Source: Elusimicrobiota bacterium
GTDB lineage: Bacteria; Elusimicrobiota; Endomicrobiia; Endomicrobiales; Endomicrobiaceae
Length of the DNA stretch: 64,000 bases
Direction: 5' to 3'
Assembly (NCBI GenBank): GCA_017528425.1
Contig: JAFXOV010000049.1
Location: forward strand, 1-64,000
Shown here: positions 41,053 through 48,696 of the stretch, one piece after another
Position numbering within the stretch: position 1 is the stretch's first letter
How the letters are laid out: each line of letters starts with the position of its first letter
Made by a program: the position numbers and the translations under genes
Notes under the pieces: model-generated
What the model saw: the letters and a program-made list of their open reading frames with translations, nothing else
Told to the model about the DNA's origin: nothing
The model's database searches: none

Positions 41053-43173
41053 ATGAACATGAAGATGAAGAAAAAAGATTCTTGGGGAATATTTTTTTGG
41101 GTAGTACTGGCTATAGTGTTACTTATATTTATGCAGAATTCCACCAAGAAATCCAATATAGAAGAAATGCCTTACTCTCAATTCAAACAAAGTGTTAAAG
41201 AAGGGAAAATCATAAATGCCGTTGTTACTCCCGAATTGATAGAGGGTGAATTTACCGATGCGGAAGGCAAACAAAGAAAGTATAAAACCGTACCGTTGGA
41301 AGATCCGAAACTTATCGAAGATATGGAAGAACACAAAGTTCAAAAGTTTTCCGGTAAAGCTCAAAACGGATGGTTAGGACCTTTGATTTTCAGTTGGGGA
41401 CCGATAATCCTTTTAATACTTTTCTGGTTATGGATAATGCGAGGTATGTCTGCGGGCGGAAAACAGGCAATGTCTTTTGCCAAGAGTAAAGCAAAACTTG
41501 CAGATAACGGTAAAAAAATAACATTTAAAGAAGTTGCAGGGTGCGAAGAAGCAAAAGAAGAATTGCAGGAAATAGTAGAGTTTCTGAAAAATCCTTCAAA
41601 GTTTCAAAAGCTCGGCGGTAAAATTCCGAAAGGAGTTTTACTTGCGGGTGCTCCCGGAACAGGTAAAACTTTACTTGCAAAAGCAGTTGCAGGTGAAGCC
41701 GGTGTTCCTTTCTTTTCTTCAAGCGGTTCCGAATTTGTGGAAATGTTTGTAGGTGTCGGTGCATCAAGAGTCAGAGATTTGTTTGACCAGGGCAGAAAGA
41801 ATGCGCCGTGCTTACTGTTTATAGATGAAATCGATGCCGTAGGAAGACACAGAGGTGCAGGTCTCGGCGGCGGTAACGATGAAAGAGAACAAACATTGAA
41901 CCAAATACTTGTAGAAATGGACGGATTCGATACTAAAGAAGGTGTTATAATAATTGCGGCAACTAACAGACCTGACGTTTTGGATCCGGCACTACTTAGA
42001 GCGGGAAGATTCGACAGACAAGTAGTAGTTAATACTCCCGACTTAAAAGACAGAGAAGAAATATTAAAAGTTCATGTAAAAAATATAAAAGTAGATAAAG
42101 GTGTGGACTTAAAAGTTTTGGCAAGAAGAACTCCCGGCTTTGTAGGTGCCGATTTAGCTAACCTTGCAAACGAAGCTGCACTTCTTGCAGCAAGAAAAAA
42201 TTTAGATGTTGTTACAATGAAATGTTTTGAAGAAGCAATAGACAAAATAATGGCAGGACCTCAGAAAAAGTCCAGAGTAATTTCGGATAAAGAAAAAAGT
42301 ATTATTGCTTACCATGAAGCAGGTCACACCATTGTTGCAAAAATGATTCCTAACACGGATCCTGTTCATAAAGTAACAATAATGGCAAGCGGCAGGGCGT
42401 TAGGTTATACATTACAAGTTCCGTTGGAAGACAAATTTTTAAGTTCAAAGTCGGAAATAGAAGCAAGACTTGCAATACTTATGGGCGGTAGAGTTGCGGA
42501 AGAAATTGTGTTTGGTGACATAACAACAGGTGCTTCAAATGATATTTCAAGGGCAACACAAATTGCCACAAAAATGGTTACGGCTTTCGGTATGAGCGAC
42601 AAAATAGGAACACTTGCTTTGGAAAAAGATACCGAAGAAGTATTTTTAGGCAGAGATATTTCGAGAACACAAAAACATTCGAACAAAACCGCGGAACTTA
42701 TAGATGAAGAAGTAAAAAATATAGTTACCACCGCAAAAAATAAAGCAAAAAAAATATTGGAAGATAACAGAGAAAAGTTAGACAATTTGGTTAAAGCTTT
42801 AATAGAAAGAGAAACATTGAACGGTGATCAGGTTAGCAAAATAATGAACGGTGAAGAGTTGGATCCTATGGAATCAAAGCCGGTAAAAAAAGAAGTTGTT
42901 ACCGAAGAACCGAAAGTTGAACCTGAAATAAAACCTGAACCTAAACAAGAAACTGAAATTAAAGCTGAACCTGAAACAGTGAAAAAAGAAGAAATAAAAC
43001 AAGAAGAACCTAAACAAGAAGAAAAAATTGAAGAAAAGATAGAAGTTAAAGAAGATAAAAAAGAAGAACCGCTAAGAGTAAAAAAGGCAAGAAAAACTAA
43101 AACGGAAACTTTTCAGAACGATTTGTTTGCAAAAATAGATAATAAAGAAGAAGATAACAATGAAGAAAAATAA
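41053..43173 (+). CDS. ftsH: ATP-dependent zinc metalloprotease FtsH with long acidic/basic tail
   Basis: 706 residues (E. coli 644). Two membrane helices (about 11-27 and 115-135) flank a periplasmic domain. The AAA core has Walker A GAPGTGKT (about 198-205), Walker B LLFIDEID (about 253-260) and the SRH; zinc protease motif AYHEAGH at about 418-424. Beyond about residue 605 there is an unusual tail of about 100 residues rich in Glu, Lys and Pro ([16 protein letters not shown]-like), ending in [12 protein letters not shown]. The protease clears misfolded membrane and regulatory proteins. It overlaps folE by 14 bp. Confidence 0.97.
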
Positions 43174-43744
43174 AATAAAAAAAACATTTAATAAACAAAA
43201 ATTTCAAAAAGCTGTATCGATGATGTTGGAAGCTTTCGGTGAAGATACAAAAAGAGAAGGTATAAAAAGAACTCCCGAAAGAGTAGCTGAATTTTATGAA
43301 GAGTTTTTTGACGGGTACAACGAAGATATTGATAATATAATTTCCGTTCACTATCAAACGGAAGAATATGAAGAAATAGTTATCGTTAAAGATATACAAC
43401 TTTATTCAATGTGCGAACATCATTTGTTACCTTTTTCAGGTAAAGTTCATATAGCATATTTACCTAAAAAAGGCAGAATTGTCGGCGTTTCAAAATTGGT
43501 TAGAGTTGTAGAAGCTTTTGCTCACAGATTACAGTTGCAGGAAAGATTATCCGAACAAATTGCCGATACCATAATGAAAACCGTTCAACCTAAAGGTGCA
43601 ATGGTTGTAATAGAAGCCGAACATTTATGTATGACAATGAGAGGAGTAAGAAAACCGGGAGCAAAAATGATAACTTCCGCAATGAGAGGCATATTCTTAA
43701 AAGATGCAAGAACAAGAGCCGAAGCCCTTTCATTGTTGAAATAA
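43160..43744 (+). CDS. folE: GTP cyclohydrolase I
   Basis: 194 residues. The zinc and active-site motifs are complete: [13 protein letters not shown] at about 37-49, [19 protein letters not shown] at about 88-106 (Cys and His ligands), ERLSEQIAD and CMTMRGV at about 155-161 (third ligand Cys). It makes dihydroneopterin triphosphate for folate (or queuosine precursors). The ATG is inside the end of ftsH, so it is translationally coupled. Followed by element C, then folP. Confidence 0.96.
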
Positions 43745-43890: not shown

Positions 43891-43991
43891 TTTCTATCCT
43901 TACATTTTAATGATTAATGTTTTTTTCTTTTTTTGATAAAATATGTATCATAAATAAAAATTTTAAATTAATAATTGCTAATTGTAAAAAA

Positions 43992-45179
43992 ATGATTGTA
44001 AAAAAAGTAAAAGCAGATACCATAAAAGATGCGGTAAAAATTGTTGCAAGTTCAAAATGTGATGAATATGTATACGAAAAACTTGCAAAAAAAATTGTCG
44101 GTAATTCTTTCATAGTGGAAGACATAGATAACAGAGCAGCAAGTGTTTTAAAGCAAGAAGCATTGTCTTGCGGATGTGATGTTGCCGTAAGTAAAGATGT
44201 ATCTCTGTTCAAAAAAGGGAAATCAAATATTGTTATCTGTGCCAACCAAAACCAAATAGAAAAATTAACTTCAAAAATTAAAGAACAGCCGTTCGGATTA
44301 AAAATATTATCGAAACAAATATCTGATATTAACTCTTTTCAATTAAAACAGATAGTTTGTGCCAACAAAAAAATAGCATTAAACAAAACTCTTGTAATGG
44401 GTATAATAAATTTATCACCCGATTCTTTTTTTAAAAACGGAATAGAAGATATTAATGTTGCGGTAGAGGCTGCATTGCAAATGCAAAAAGACGGTGCCGA
44501 TATTATTGATGTTGGTGCGGAATCTACAAGGCCGGGTTCAAAACCTGTTCCGGTTAAGCAAGAAACAGAAAAGATACAAAAATTTTTAAAGTTGTTCAGA
44601 AAAAAATCCAAAATGCCTGTATCGGTAGATACGTATAAACCCGAAGTCGCAAAAGTGGCATTAGACGAAGGTGCGGATATTATAAACGATATTTATGCAC
44701 TGAGATACAAAAATAAAAGTATGACGAAAATCGTTGCAAAAAATAAGGCGGCCGTAATTTTGATGCATATGAAGAAAAACCCTTTGACGATGCAACAAAA
44801 TATAAGATATAATAATATATTAAGTGATATATTTAACTTTCTGTCAAAACAGTTGGATTTTGCTTTGGATAACGGGATAAATAAGGAGTCAATAATTATT
44901 GATCCCGGTATAGGTTTTGGCAAAACGGTTGAAGATAATTTGCTTATAATAAAAAGGTTGTTTGAATTTAAATCTTTGAATGTTCCCGTGCTTATGGCAC
45001 TATCTAACAAAAGTTTCTTGGCAAAAGTTTTGGAAGCGGAAGATTTTAGTGAAAGACAACTTGCAACGGCAATAGCAAATATGGTTTCTGTTATGAACGG
45101 TGCGGATATCTTAAGAGTTCACAATGTAAAAGAAACCGTTAATGCATTGAAAGTCTTTAATTCTATAAGGAGAATATAA
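43992..45179 (+). CDS. folP: Dihydropteroate synthase with N-terminal extension
   Basis: 395 residues from the ATG at 43992. An in-frame ATG at 43917 would add 25 residues read from AT-rich spacer and is less likely; no clear ribosome site exists for either. Residues about 1-115 form an extra N-terminal domain (AASVLKQEALSCGCDVAV at about 45-60), as in some anaerobes. The catalytic TIM barrel follows: LVMGIINLSPDSFF at about 135-148, DVGAESTRPGS at about 178-188, SVDTYKPEVA, IIDPGIGFGKT. It condenses pABA with the pterin. Its stop overlaps the cdaA start. Confidence 0.92.
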   Translation: MIVKKVKADTIKDAVKIVASSKCDEYVYEKLAKKIVGNSFIVEDIDNRAASVLKQEALSCGCDVAVSKDVSLFKKGKSNIVICANQNQIEKLTSKIKEQPFGLKILSKQISDINSFQLKQIVCANKKIALNKTLVMGIINLSPDSFFKNGIEDINVAVEAALQMQKDGADIIDVGAESTRPGSKPVPVKQETEKIQKFLKLFRKKSKMPVSVDTYKPEVAKVALDEGADIINDIYALRYKNKSMTKIVAKNKAAVILMHMKKNPLTMQQNIRYNNILSDIFNFLSKQLDFALDNGINKESIIIDPGIGFGKTVEDNLLIIKRLFEFKSLNVPVLMALSNKSFLAKVLEAEDFSERQLATAIANMVSVMNGADILRVHNVKETVNALKVFNSIRRI

Positions 45180-45943
45180 TGGAACTTGTGGCACACATAT
45201 GGAATGTTTATATTTCAAACATTTTAGATATCCTTATATTGGCATACATTTTTTATAGAATATTGCTCGTTATAAAAGGTACAAGAACAATACAGGTTGT
45301 TATAGGGCTTATTGTACTTGTTGCCGTTACTATCATAGCAAGAGATGTTTTACATTTACAAACATTATCTTGGATTATGGGAAAATTTTGGCTTGCCGCA
45401 GTTGTTATACTTGCGGTTGTTTTTCAGTCGGAAATCAGATACGCGCTTGCCAAAATAGGAAGCAAACTTTTCTCTATAAGAACAAAAATAAAATCAAATT
45501 TTATGTCGGAAATTGTTGAAGCCGCTACCGAAATGAGCAAAATAAGAATGGGTGCTTTAATAGTTCTCGAAAAAGATATGGGGTTAAAAAATTATACCGA
45601 AACGGGAATAAGAATAGATGCTAAAGTAACTCACGAATTGTTGTTGTCCATATTTAATACAAAGGCACCTATTCACGACGGTGCAGTTATAATAAAAGAT
45701 GAAAAGATAGAAGCTGCCGGATGTGTTTTGCCCATAAGTACCGAGATTGAAGTTAAACATTTGGGAACAAGACACAGAGCCGGTATAGGTTTGTCGGCAC
45801 TGACCGATGCAATAGTGCTTGTAGTATCCGAAGAGACAGGTAATATATCGATTTGTGTTGACGGAAAAATAGAAAAAGTAAGTACCGAAAACTTGTTGGA
45901 AACATTGACGAACAGATATACACAAAAGGCAAATGTATTATGA
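45179..45943 (+). CDS. cdaA: Diadenylate cyclase CdaA (c-di-AMP synthase)
   Basis: 254 residues. Three N-terminal membrane helices (about 10-80) precede the DAC domain, with the catalytic HDGAVII (about 159-165) and RHRAGIGLSALTDAIV (about 198-213) motifs. It makes cyclic di-AMP at the membrane from two ATP. The gene overlaps folP by one base and a micro-ORF resembling the start of CdaR by 4 bp. The PgpH-like gene at 9744 can supply the matching hydrolase. Confidence 0.96.
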   Translation: MELVAHIWNVYISNILDILILAYIFYRILLVIKGTRTIQVVIGLIVLVAVTIIARDVLHLQTLSWIMGKFWLAAVVILAVVFQSEIRYALAKIGSKLFSIRTKIKSNFMSEIVEAATEMSKIRMGALIVLEKDMGLKNYTETGIRIDAKVTHELLLSIFNTKAPIHDGAVIIKDEKIEAAGCVLPISTEIEVKHLGTRHRAGIGLSALTDAIVLVVSEETGNISICVDGKIEKVSTENLLETLTNRYTQKANVL

Positions 45944-46056
45944 AAATAAGAAAAGTAAATTTTAAAAGTATAAAAAAATCAATATTGAATAATTGGCAAT
46001 TAAAACTTATTTCTTTGTGTCTTGCCCTGCTATTTTGGGCATATGTAAAGTTATAA
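45940..46056 (+). CDS. 38-residue membrane peptide resembling the CdaR/YbbR N-terminus
   Basis: The ATG overlaps the cdaA stop (ATGA) and the frame runs 38 codons to TAA. The sequence begins with basic residues (MKIRKVNFKSIKKSIL) and then NNWQLKLISLCLALLFWAYVKL. The NW-LKL-LxLxLA-xLFWxYV pattern is how CdaR (YbbR) proteins begin, but no YbbR domain follows; the next gene, glgP, starts 31 bp later. cdaA-cdaR is a standard gene pair, so this is either a reduced CdaR acting as a membrane partner of CdaA or a truncated remnant. The overlap favours real translation. Confidence 0.65.
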   Translation: MKIRKVNFKSIKKSILNNWQLKLISLCLALLFWAYVKL

Positions 46057-46086: not shown

Positions 46087-48696
46087 ATGTTGAAAGACAA
46101 TGATTTATTTAATGAAAACCAGGAGACTTTTACAGCGATAAAAGCGAAAAGTTTTGTAGTTATGCCATCTTTGCCGGAAAGTTTAAAAGATTTAGCAACT
46201 ATTTCCGAAAATATGTGGTGGTGCTGGAACAGTGATGCTGTTGAATTGTTTAGAAGATTAGACAGACATATATGGGAAGAATCTTATCATAGCCCGAAAG
46301 CCATGTTGGGTCTTGTAAAACAGGAAAGATTGGAAGAGTTGGCAGATGATACAAGCTTTATTTCTCATATGAAAATGGTAAAAGCGGAACTCGATAAATA
46401 TATGTCGGTACCTACATGGTTCGATAAAACTTTCCCTGAATATAAAGATAAAAAAATCGCATACTTTTCTACCGAGTTTGCAATTCATGAAAGTTTGCCT
46501 ATATATTCCGGAGGTTTGGGAGTATTGTCCGGAGATCATTTGAAATCCGCAAGTGATATGGGACTTCCTTTGGTAGGTATAGGTTTGTTGTACAGAAACG
46601 GATATTTTAAACAGCATTTAAGTATTGACGGTTGGCAGATAGAAGAATATAAAGTAAACCATTTCTACAGTATGCCTATGCAACTTTTAACAGATGAAAA
46701 AGGCGATGCTTTGTTTATAGAAATTTCGTTGCCTCGTTCACCGAGAGTATTTGCAAGAATATGGAAAGTTCAGGTAGGCAGAGTTGCTCTTTATTTGTTG
46801 GATACGGATTTTGATAAAAATTCTCCAGAAGACAGAACGATTACCGGTGAACTTTACGGCGGTGACAAAGAAATGAGAATTAAGCAGGAAAAGTTGTTGG
46901 GTGTCGGCGGTATGAAAGTTTTGGAACTTTTAAATATCGATCCTTCCGTAATACATATCAATGAAGGTCATTCCGCATTCTTGTTGTTGGAAAAAATGAG
47001 AATGTTGATGAAGAACAAAGGTTTATCTTTCGAACAGGCACAGAAAGTTGTTAAATCAAATTGTGTGTTCACAACACATACTCCTGTTCCTGCAGGTAAC
47101 GAAGTGTTCTCGGCACAACTTGTTTCAACATATTTTGAAAGTTTGTACAGAGAGTTAGGTTTATCGAGAGAACAATTCTTGGCTTTAGGCAGGGATTTGA
47201 AAGTTGAAAACATGGAAAAAGATTTTTCAATGACAATACTTGCACTTAAAGCTTGCGGTAAAGCTAACGGCGTTTCAAGATTGCATGCAACAGTATCAAG
47301 AGAAATGTGGCAAAATGTTTGGCCGGAACTTCCAAGAAAAGAAATTCCTATTACCCACATTACAAACGGTATTCACACAAACACTTGGATATCTTATGAG
47401 TTTGCAGGTTTGTTCCAAAGATATATCGGTGAAGATTGGATAGATGAACCTTCAGACCAGACTTTATGGCAAAGAATAGCAGATATTCCCGATGCGGAAC
47501 TTTGGAGAAGTCACGAAAGAAGAAAAGAAAGACTTGTATCTTTTGCAAGAAGCAGATTAAAAATGCAGTTGCAAAGAAGAGGTCTTTCAAAACATATGGT
47601 GGCTTATGCCGATGAAGTTTTAGATCCCGAAGCATTAACAATCGGTTTTGCAAGAAGATTTGCAACATATAAAAGAGGTAACTTAATATTCAGAAATCTC
47701 GACAGAATCAAAAAAATACTTACCAATAAAGAAAAACCTGTACAGATAATTATTGCAGGTAAAGCTCATCCGAAAGATGATAAAGGTAAAGAAATTATAA
47801 AAAGTATCGTTGCTTTAACTTCTGATCCCGACTTAAAATATAAAGTAGTTTTCTTGGAAGATTACGATATGAATGTTGCTCACTATTTGGTTCAGGGCGT
47901 GGATATTTGGTTGAACAATCCTTTAAGACCGCAGGAAGCATCAGGTACAAGCGGAATGAAAGCTGCAGTTAACGGTGCAATAAATTTCAGTGTGCTTGAC
48001 GGTTGGTGGTGTGAAGGTTATAACGGTGAAAACGGTTGGGTTGTAGGTTCAACAGATACTTACAATGATTTGGAATACCAAAATGAAATGGAATCAAGAT
48101 CAATATATGAAATGTTGGAAAAAGAAATAATTCCTTTATTCTTCGACAGAGGTCAAGACGATTTGCCCAGAGGCTGGATAACAAAAATGAAAGCTTGTAT
48201 GCAAACGGTAGGTCCTATGTTTAATACAAACAGAATGATTGAAGATTATACAAGAAAATTTTATGTCCCGTCTATGGAATTGACCGAAAAGATGAAAGAA
48301 AACAACTATGAACTTGCAAAGAAAAAAGCAGATTGGCAAAGTAATATTGAAAGAAATTGGTCAAGAGTTTCCATTATAAGTGCCGATGATAATACAAGCG
48401 CAAAAACAATTAAAATCGGTGAACCTATAAAAATAAGAGTTAGAGTTAATTTGGCAGGAATAGCTCCGGAAGATGTTTTTGTTCAGGTTTATGAAGGTTA
48501 TTTGAACACCAAAAATGTTTTAAGCAATGAAACATTTGAAAACATGAAAATGGTTTCAAAAGAACAAGACGGAACATATATATATGAAATCGAAGCACCT
48601 ACAAGAATTGTAGGCCATTGCGGTTACACCGTAAGAATAGTTCCGCAATATATGGATAAAGTTGAATATATTCCGGGCATAATCAAATGGTTTTAA
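46087..48696 (+). CDS. glgP: Alpha-glucan phosphorylase (GT35, DUF3417 type)
   Basis: 869 residues. The N-terminal DUF3417 domain (about 20-140, LATISENMWWCWN) marks the TIGR02094 type. The catalytic region includes YFSTEFAIHESLPIYSGGLGVLSGDHLKSASD at about 120-150, INEGHSAF at about 295-302, TTHTPVPAGNE at about 325-335 and the PLP-lysine motif EASGTSGMKAAVNG at about 618-631. It phosphorolyses glycogen or maltodextrin to glucose-1-phosphate. GGAG lies about 9 nt before the ATG. It overlaps the next gene by 10 bp. Confidence 0.95.
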   Translation: MLKDNDLFNENQETFTAIKAKSFVVMPSLPESLKDLATISENMWWCWNSDAVELFRRLDRHIWEESYHSPKAMLGLVKQERLEELADDTSFISHMKMVKAELDKYMSVPTWFDKTFPEYKDKKIAYFSTEFAIHESLPIYSGGLGVLSGDHLKSASDMGLPLVGIGLLYRNGYFKQHLSIDGWQIEEYKVNHFYSMPMQLLTDEKGDALFIEISLPRSPRVFARIWKVQVGRVALYLLDTDFDKNSPEDRTITGELYGGDKEMRIKQEKLLGVGGMKVLELLNIDPSVIHINEGHSAFLLLEKMRMLMKNKGLSFEQAQKVVKSNCVFTTHTPVPAGNEVFSAQLVSTYFESLYRELGLSREQFLALGRDLKVENMEKDFSMTILALKACGKANGVSRLHATVSREMWQNVWPELPRKEIPITHITNGIHTNTWISYEFAGLFQRYIGEDWIDEPSDQTLWQRIADIPDAELWRSHERRKERLVSFARSRLKMQLQRRGLSKHMVAYADEVLDPEALTIGFARRFATYKRGNLIFRNLDRIKKILTNKEKPVQIIIAGKAHPKDDKGKEIIKSIVALTSDPDLKYKVVFLEDYDMNVAHYLVQGVDIWLNNPLRPQEASGTSGMKAAVNGAINFSVLDGWWCEGYNGENGWVVGSTDTYNDLEYQNEMESRSIYEMLEKEIIPLFFDRGQDDLPRGWITKMKACMQTVGPMFNTNRMIEDYTRKFYVPSMELTEKMKENNYELAKKKADWQSNIERNWSRVSIISADDNTSAKTIKIGEPIKIRVRVNLAGIAPEDVFVQVYEGYLNTKNVLSNETFENMKMVSKEQDGTYIYEIEAPTRIVGHCGYTVRIVPQYMDKVEYIPGIIKWF

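Follow-up and report, generated by a model that had tools for sequence, protein, structure and literature searches.

The window, by which the whole analyzed stretch of 64,000 nucleotides is meant (Elusimicrobiota bacterium, contig JAFXOV010000049.1), contained the gene order ftsH-folE-folP-cdaA-(peptide)-glycogen phosphorylase (Table 1). The cdaA gene encodes a true CdaA, since its translation showed both the CdaA_N and the DAC domain, with values of 2.2e-9 and 5.5e-42, respectively, as well as the HDGA and RHR motifs. The ATG of a micro-ORF begins one base ahead of the TGA stop of cdaA, and the 38-aa product of this micro-ORF, MKIRKVNFKSIKKSILNNWQLKLISLCLALLFWAYVKL, has a basic start followed by one hydrophobic helix. 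The original prediction had described this frame as a CdaR-like membrane peptide that overlaps the cdaA stop by ATGA and lacks a YbbR domain, and these features were all confirmed: no match to YbbR (PF07949) was obtained for the peptide, for the 20 relatives aligned with it, or anywhere in the genome from which the window derives. The peptide itself matched no Pfam or NCBIfam family. Between its stop codon and the next gene lie about 30 nt, which leaves no room for a YbbR part, frameshifted or otherwise; a frameshifted full cdaR at this locus was therefore ruled out.

Table 1. Coordinates of the micro-ORF, its sequence features and the neighboring genes in the window.
Feature	Position	Strand	Basis or remark
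ftsH	41053..43173	+	TIGR01241
folE, GTP cyclohydrolase I	43160..43744	+	PF01227
folP, dihydropteroate synthase; meets the cdaA start	43917..45179	+	PF00809; neighbor shared with Pelovirga
cdaA, membrane diadenylate cyclase, 254 aa; presumed partner of the peptide	45179..45943	+	PF19293 (CdaA_N), PF02457 (DAC)
Micro-ORF, read as helix-only cdaR, 38 aa plus stop	45940..46056	+	conservation, purifying selection, profile homology to CdaR N-termini
ATGA start/stop overlap of micro-ORF with cdaA	45940..45943	+	translational coupling expected
Basic N-terminus, presumably cytoplasmic (residues 1-17)	45940..45990	+	sequence; charge bias over 77 peptides
Transmembrane helix (residues 18-36) with conserved N18-W19, K22, A29 and W33	45991..46047	+	conservation peak at 100 degrees per residue
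Glycogen/maltodextrin phosphorylase-like gene, at the place of glmM in most relatives	46087..48696	+	PF00343, PF11897

CdaA was found in 92 of 120 relatives, and 90 cdaA loci, including that of the window, were read. A helix profile was built from 17 seed peptides which were themselves drawn from these 90 loci, so that the resulting counts measure breadth and not blind discovery. With this profile, a helix was detected at no more than 300 nt behind the cdaA stop, with scores of at least 29 bits, in 82 of the 90 loci, three of them in-frame CdaA fusions; the top unrelated match anywhere in the 90 loci scored 9.6 bits. In a further locus (L057) the helix was located at +341 from the cdaA stop, in genome G012 cdaA lies beside another gene and the peptide is encoded on a different contig, immediately before glmM, and in L090 CdaA is fused to the helix plus YbbR. 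The remaining five loci without a helix (L083, L084, L086, L088, and L089) all belong to family f8. Members of this family carry cdaA immediately before gyrB, and a convincing helix gene was found neither nearby nor in the rest of the genome. In families f8 and f25 and in genome G273, CdaA lacks a helix gene beside it, which indicates that CdaA can work without the helix and that the latter is not indispensable everywhere.

Across 341 Elusimicrobiota genomes, CdaA was present in 225 and a strong helix match in 149, while the genomes checked that lack CdaA contained no convincing helix copy. A weak helix match in G056 was judged to be noise. The peptides have a median length of 32 residues, and overlap cdaA by ATGA in about half of the relatives (35-39 of about 78). 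The median net charge over 77 peptides was +5 for the residues preceding the helix and +1 for those following it, a bias from which an N-in/C-out topology is predicted.

Selection on the peptide was estimated from 24 sister pairs, for which a pooled pN/pS of 0.245 was obtained; pN was below pS in 23 of the 24 pairs (Fisher p about 1e-53). Values per group ranged from 0.11 to 0.37 for the peptide, versus 0.14-0.24 for cdaA, and within the close genus constraint was somewhat weaker on the peptide (0.37) than on cdaA (0.16). The micro-ORF is thus a conserved coding gene under strong purifying selection, and both the pooled pN/pS and the breadth of the profile matches relative to the 9.6-bit background rule out a chance ORF.

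The original prediction had proposed to look for the same micro-ORF behind cdaA in relatives, and had reasoned that a full cdaR at this position in relatives would point to a recent truncation in the window. The micro-ORF was indeed recovered in relatives, under purifying selection and persisting through fusions and relocation, and no separate full-length cdaR was found in them; true YbbR matches in the 341 genomes were confined to CdaA-fused frames. PF07949 was matched in six of these genomes, five times in such frames, one of the five below the curated cut-off; a YbbR match in G096 belonged to an unrelated surface protein. The helix-only state spans most CdaA-bearing families of Elusimicrobiota, and its phylum-wide occurrence rules out a recent truncation.

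In three small Endomicrobium-like genomes (G052:C2, G053:C6, and G054:C1), several stop codons interrupt cdaA; the helix ORF still follows the broken gene in G053, and G052 and G054 gave no strong helix match. Several even smaller genomes contain no cdaA at all. Several near-complete genomes of family f13 (G092, G095, G097, G099, G101, and others) have no recognizable CdaA and no helix peptide.

To relate the peptide to proteins of other phyla, one genome per species was scanned, which yielded 80 cdaA loci; of these, 73 came from phyla other than Elusimicrobiota (Bacillota, Thermodesulfobacteriota, Nitrospirae, and others). As a test independent of the breadth count, a profile made solely from Elusimicrobiota peptides was applied to these loci. 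Of the 73 non-Elusimicrobiota loci, 29 gave a match (E<0.01) at the N-terminus of the ORF that follows cdaA, each time with at least 106 residues after the helix, and there was no off-target match on the forward strand at E<0.05. By inspection, a full-length CdaR-type ORF follows cdaA in 66 of the 73 loci; of the others, one (L143) is a CdaA-CdaR fusion and six are without CdaR. The helix-only form was found in none of these 73 loci, which constitute the sample outside the phylum. The best match (39 bits) was to a YbbR protein of Pelovirga with two matched stretches, which is encoded in the order ftsH-folP-cdaA-cdaR-glmM-pdxJ; the corresponding order in the Elusimicrobiota locus L031 is folP-cdaA-(peptide)-glmM-pdxJ. 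The peptide gene precedes glmM in many relatives. In the genus of the window, the phosphorylase-like gene takes this place and the true glmM is located on another contig, which is C30 in the genome of the window.

Because CdaR N-termini encoded immediately after cdaA, within a matching gene order, are recognized by a profile made only from the peptides, identification of the peptide as a homologue of the CdaR N-terminal helix, in the cdaR position, is well supported by sequence comparison. The resemblance to CdaR N-termini that had originally been noted is thereby raised to homology by profile and synteny. Among the hallmarks of the CdaR family, the homologous N-terminal single helix and the position behind cdaA, in many relatives also before glmM, were found, and the YbbR domain was absent.

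In-frame fusions of CdaA to the helix occurred in G005/G010, G032, and G207. In a tree of 97 CdaA proteins, for which a quick search and a simple model were used, all helix-only micro-ORF types fell into one clade (support 97), whose 49 rows comprised 38 micro-ORFs, four fused helices and seven entries without a helix. According to this tree, helix-CdaA fusions arose three separate times (L011/L012, L054, L204), and some losses took place as well. Fusion after the cytoplasmic DAC domain suits a helix with its N-terminus inside, and the recurrence of such fusions lends indirect support to the binding of CdaA via the transmembrane region that would be expected of a CdaR. A second CdaA lineage was composed of proteins in which CdaA is followed by the helix and one YbbR domain (families f28 and f26 and parts of f20, f21, and f14) and of proteins with CdaA and the helix without YbbR (family f29). 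Most simply, this pattern suggests that YbbR was lost independently a second time and the helix was kept; the branching inside this lineage is only loosely resolved. Genome G093 holds both types, a CdaA with micro-ORF (L060, C3) and a CdaA-helix-YbbR fusion (L090, C12). A DHH/DHHA1 phosphoesterase gene was found directly after second-lineage cdaA in most f28/f29 loci, for example at L205:2366-3409 and, on the reverse strand, at L215:44-1081. This gene is a candidate c-di-AMP phosphodiesterase, and synthesis and breakdown may share one operon.

Conservation along the peptide followed a helical period, with a peak at 100 degrees per residue and a conserved face formed by N18-K22-L/F26-A29-W33, as expected of a helix that packs on another. 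This signal was modest (p 0.013 for residues 18-33, up to 0.045 for wider windows). Structure prediction was applied to L143, the natural CdaA-CdaR fusion, with CdaA rows only, since a mixed CdaA and CdaR alignment put the CdaR helix on the first helices of CdaA. The cyclase domain was predicted with confidence and matched solved CdaA structures, whereas the CdaR part was weak, with a helix at 310-328 in uncertain surroundings, and the contact between helix and CdaA was not resolved. Among solved structures none matched the CdaR helix; structure 9G69 represents the CdaA-GlmM complex.

Binding of CdaR to CdaA has been reported to run via the transmembrane regions (PMC10243994, PMC6368335, PMC8573169). 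Depending on species and condition, CdaR raises or lowers c-di-AMP (PMC8573169, PMC9259658, PMC12422730). Full DacA activity in Chlamydia needs YbbR (PMC12422730), and YbbR had no clear effect on DacA in S. aureus (PMC6368335). Higher oligomers are regarded as the active form of CdaA cyclases, and GlmM inhibits the enzyme by blocking them; the way in which CdaR controls CdaA has been stated to be unclear (PMC8573169).

Against this background, we consider it likely that the micro-ORF is a cdaR cut down to its N-terminal helix, whose product serves as a small, fourth-helix subunit of CdaA that tunes or assembles the cyclase. The ATGA overlap would couple translation of the peptide to that of CdaA, and the peptide would insert as a single helix with an N-in/C-out orientation, and may pack with its conserved face on the three-helix membrane domain of CdaA. 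It could thereby stabilize CdaA or set the arrangement of CdaA dimers that is needed for c-di-AMP synthesis. Lacking the extracytoplasmic YbbR part, the peptide has no means of sensing an envelope signal, a role presumed for full CdaR, and any response would have to come via the membrane, the amount of peptide, or other inputs such as GlmM. That the peptide acts as a regulator, in the sense of an activating or a damping effect on c-di-AMP synthesis, is what we infer by analogy with full CdaR.

An assembly or stability factor, unlikely in our judgment but deserving of serious consideration, would be a chaperone-like anchor that shields the membrane domain of CdaA from proteolysis, for instance by FtsH, and leaves the catalytic rate unaffected. 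A peptide without a sensor domain that is presumably co-translated with CdaA would suit such a role, the several fusions to CdaA are as expected of a stoichiometric structural subunit, and ftsH is encoded in the same gene cluster; however, full CdaR alters c-di-AMP elsewhere, and in both directions (PMC9259658, PMC12422730). It is very improbable that the frame serves merely to hand ribosomes on from cdaA to whatever gene follows, with an inert peptide as its product. The ATGA overlap in about half of the loci and, in the window, the closeness of the following gene are compatible with such coupling, but it is disfavored by the selection on the amino-acid sequence, by the variation of the downstream gene (glmM, glycogen phosphorylase, or pdxJ) and by persistence of the sequence both apart from cdaA and in CdaA fusions, where coupling is not needed. 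Hardly any credence can be given to a functionless, decaying remnant of a former full cdaR: even though the YbbR domains that define CdaR are absent and some lineages have lost the peptide, neutral decay is contradicted by phylum-wide retention with a pN/pS of 0.25 over deep divergence, by the repeated fusions and by the apparent second reduction to a helix in the other CdaA lineage. Equally implausible is a small hydrophobic peptide of unrelated origin, whether toxin-like or of a general membrane type, that lies behind cdaA by chance; many single-helix peptides look alike and no Pfam or NCBIfam family covers this one, but outside the phylum its profile specifically picked out the CdaR N-termini encoded after cdaA, without an off-target match in 80 loci, and the gene sits in the cdaR position.

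If the micro-ORF is a cdaR reduced to its N-terminal helix, retention of the helix without sensor domains in much of the phylum implies that the helix alone probably performs a core part of the job of CdaR, and its natural occurrence in this form suggests a separable, selected function. A more far-reaching proposal, which we put forward tentatively and hold to have somewhat less than an even chance, is that in all bacteria the helix, rather than YbbR, does the central work of CdaR, as a fourth membrane helix of CdaA. YbbR would then be an optional sensor that Elusimicrobiota gave up on at least two independent occasions, and in these bacteria c-di-AMP would be controlled without an envelope sensor of the CdaR type. 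As peptides of 25-40 residues, the helix-only forms provide a reagent for testing the function of the CdaR helix. Surveys that rely on the YbbR domain to find cdaR would score these bacteria as lacking CdaR, and the peptides represent a family of very short conserved genes that is absent from Pfam and NCBIfam. No earlier description of a helix-only CdaR was found in the open-licence literature, a scope that falls short of proof of absence.

Like the CdaR/YbbR proteins of Bacillota, Chlamydia, Borrelia, and other bacteria, the peptide is encoded behind cdaA, has an N-terminal helix of the type NWxLKLxALxLAxxLWxY and is expected to adopt an N-in/C-out orientation. It differs from known CdaR, which has one to four extracytoplasmic YbbR domains and 140-490 residues, by its length of 25-50 residues without any YbbR domain. 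The streptococcal CdaA-CdaR fusions (PMC10243994) resemble L011, L012, L054, L204, and the proteins of family f29 in uniting both partners in one chain, but have been described as large CdaA-CdaR proteins, whereas the Elusimicrobiota chains end after the helix. In L090, L215, and their relatives, unlike in these helix-terminated fusions, one YbbR domain has been kept. Short one-helix proteins that serve larger membrane enzymes or transporters are known from KdpF- or AcrZ-like subunits. The searches showed no homology of the peptide to these families. The likeness lies in a short one-helix protein that is co-encoded with a larger membrane partner and is expected to tune it; in contrast to KdpF- and AcrZ-like subunits, the presumed partner here is a second-messenger cyclase, and the peptide would have originated by the trimming of a larger protein.
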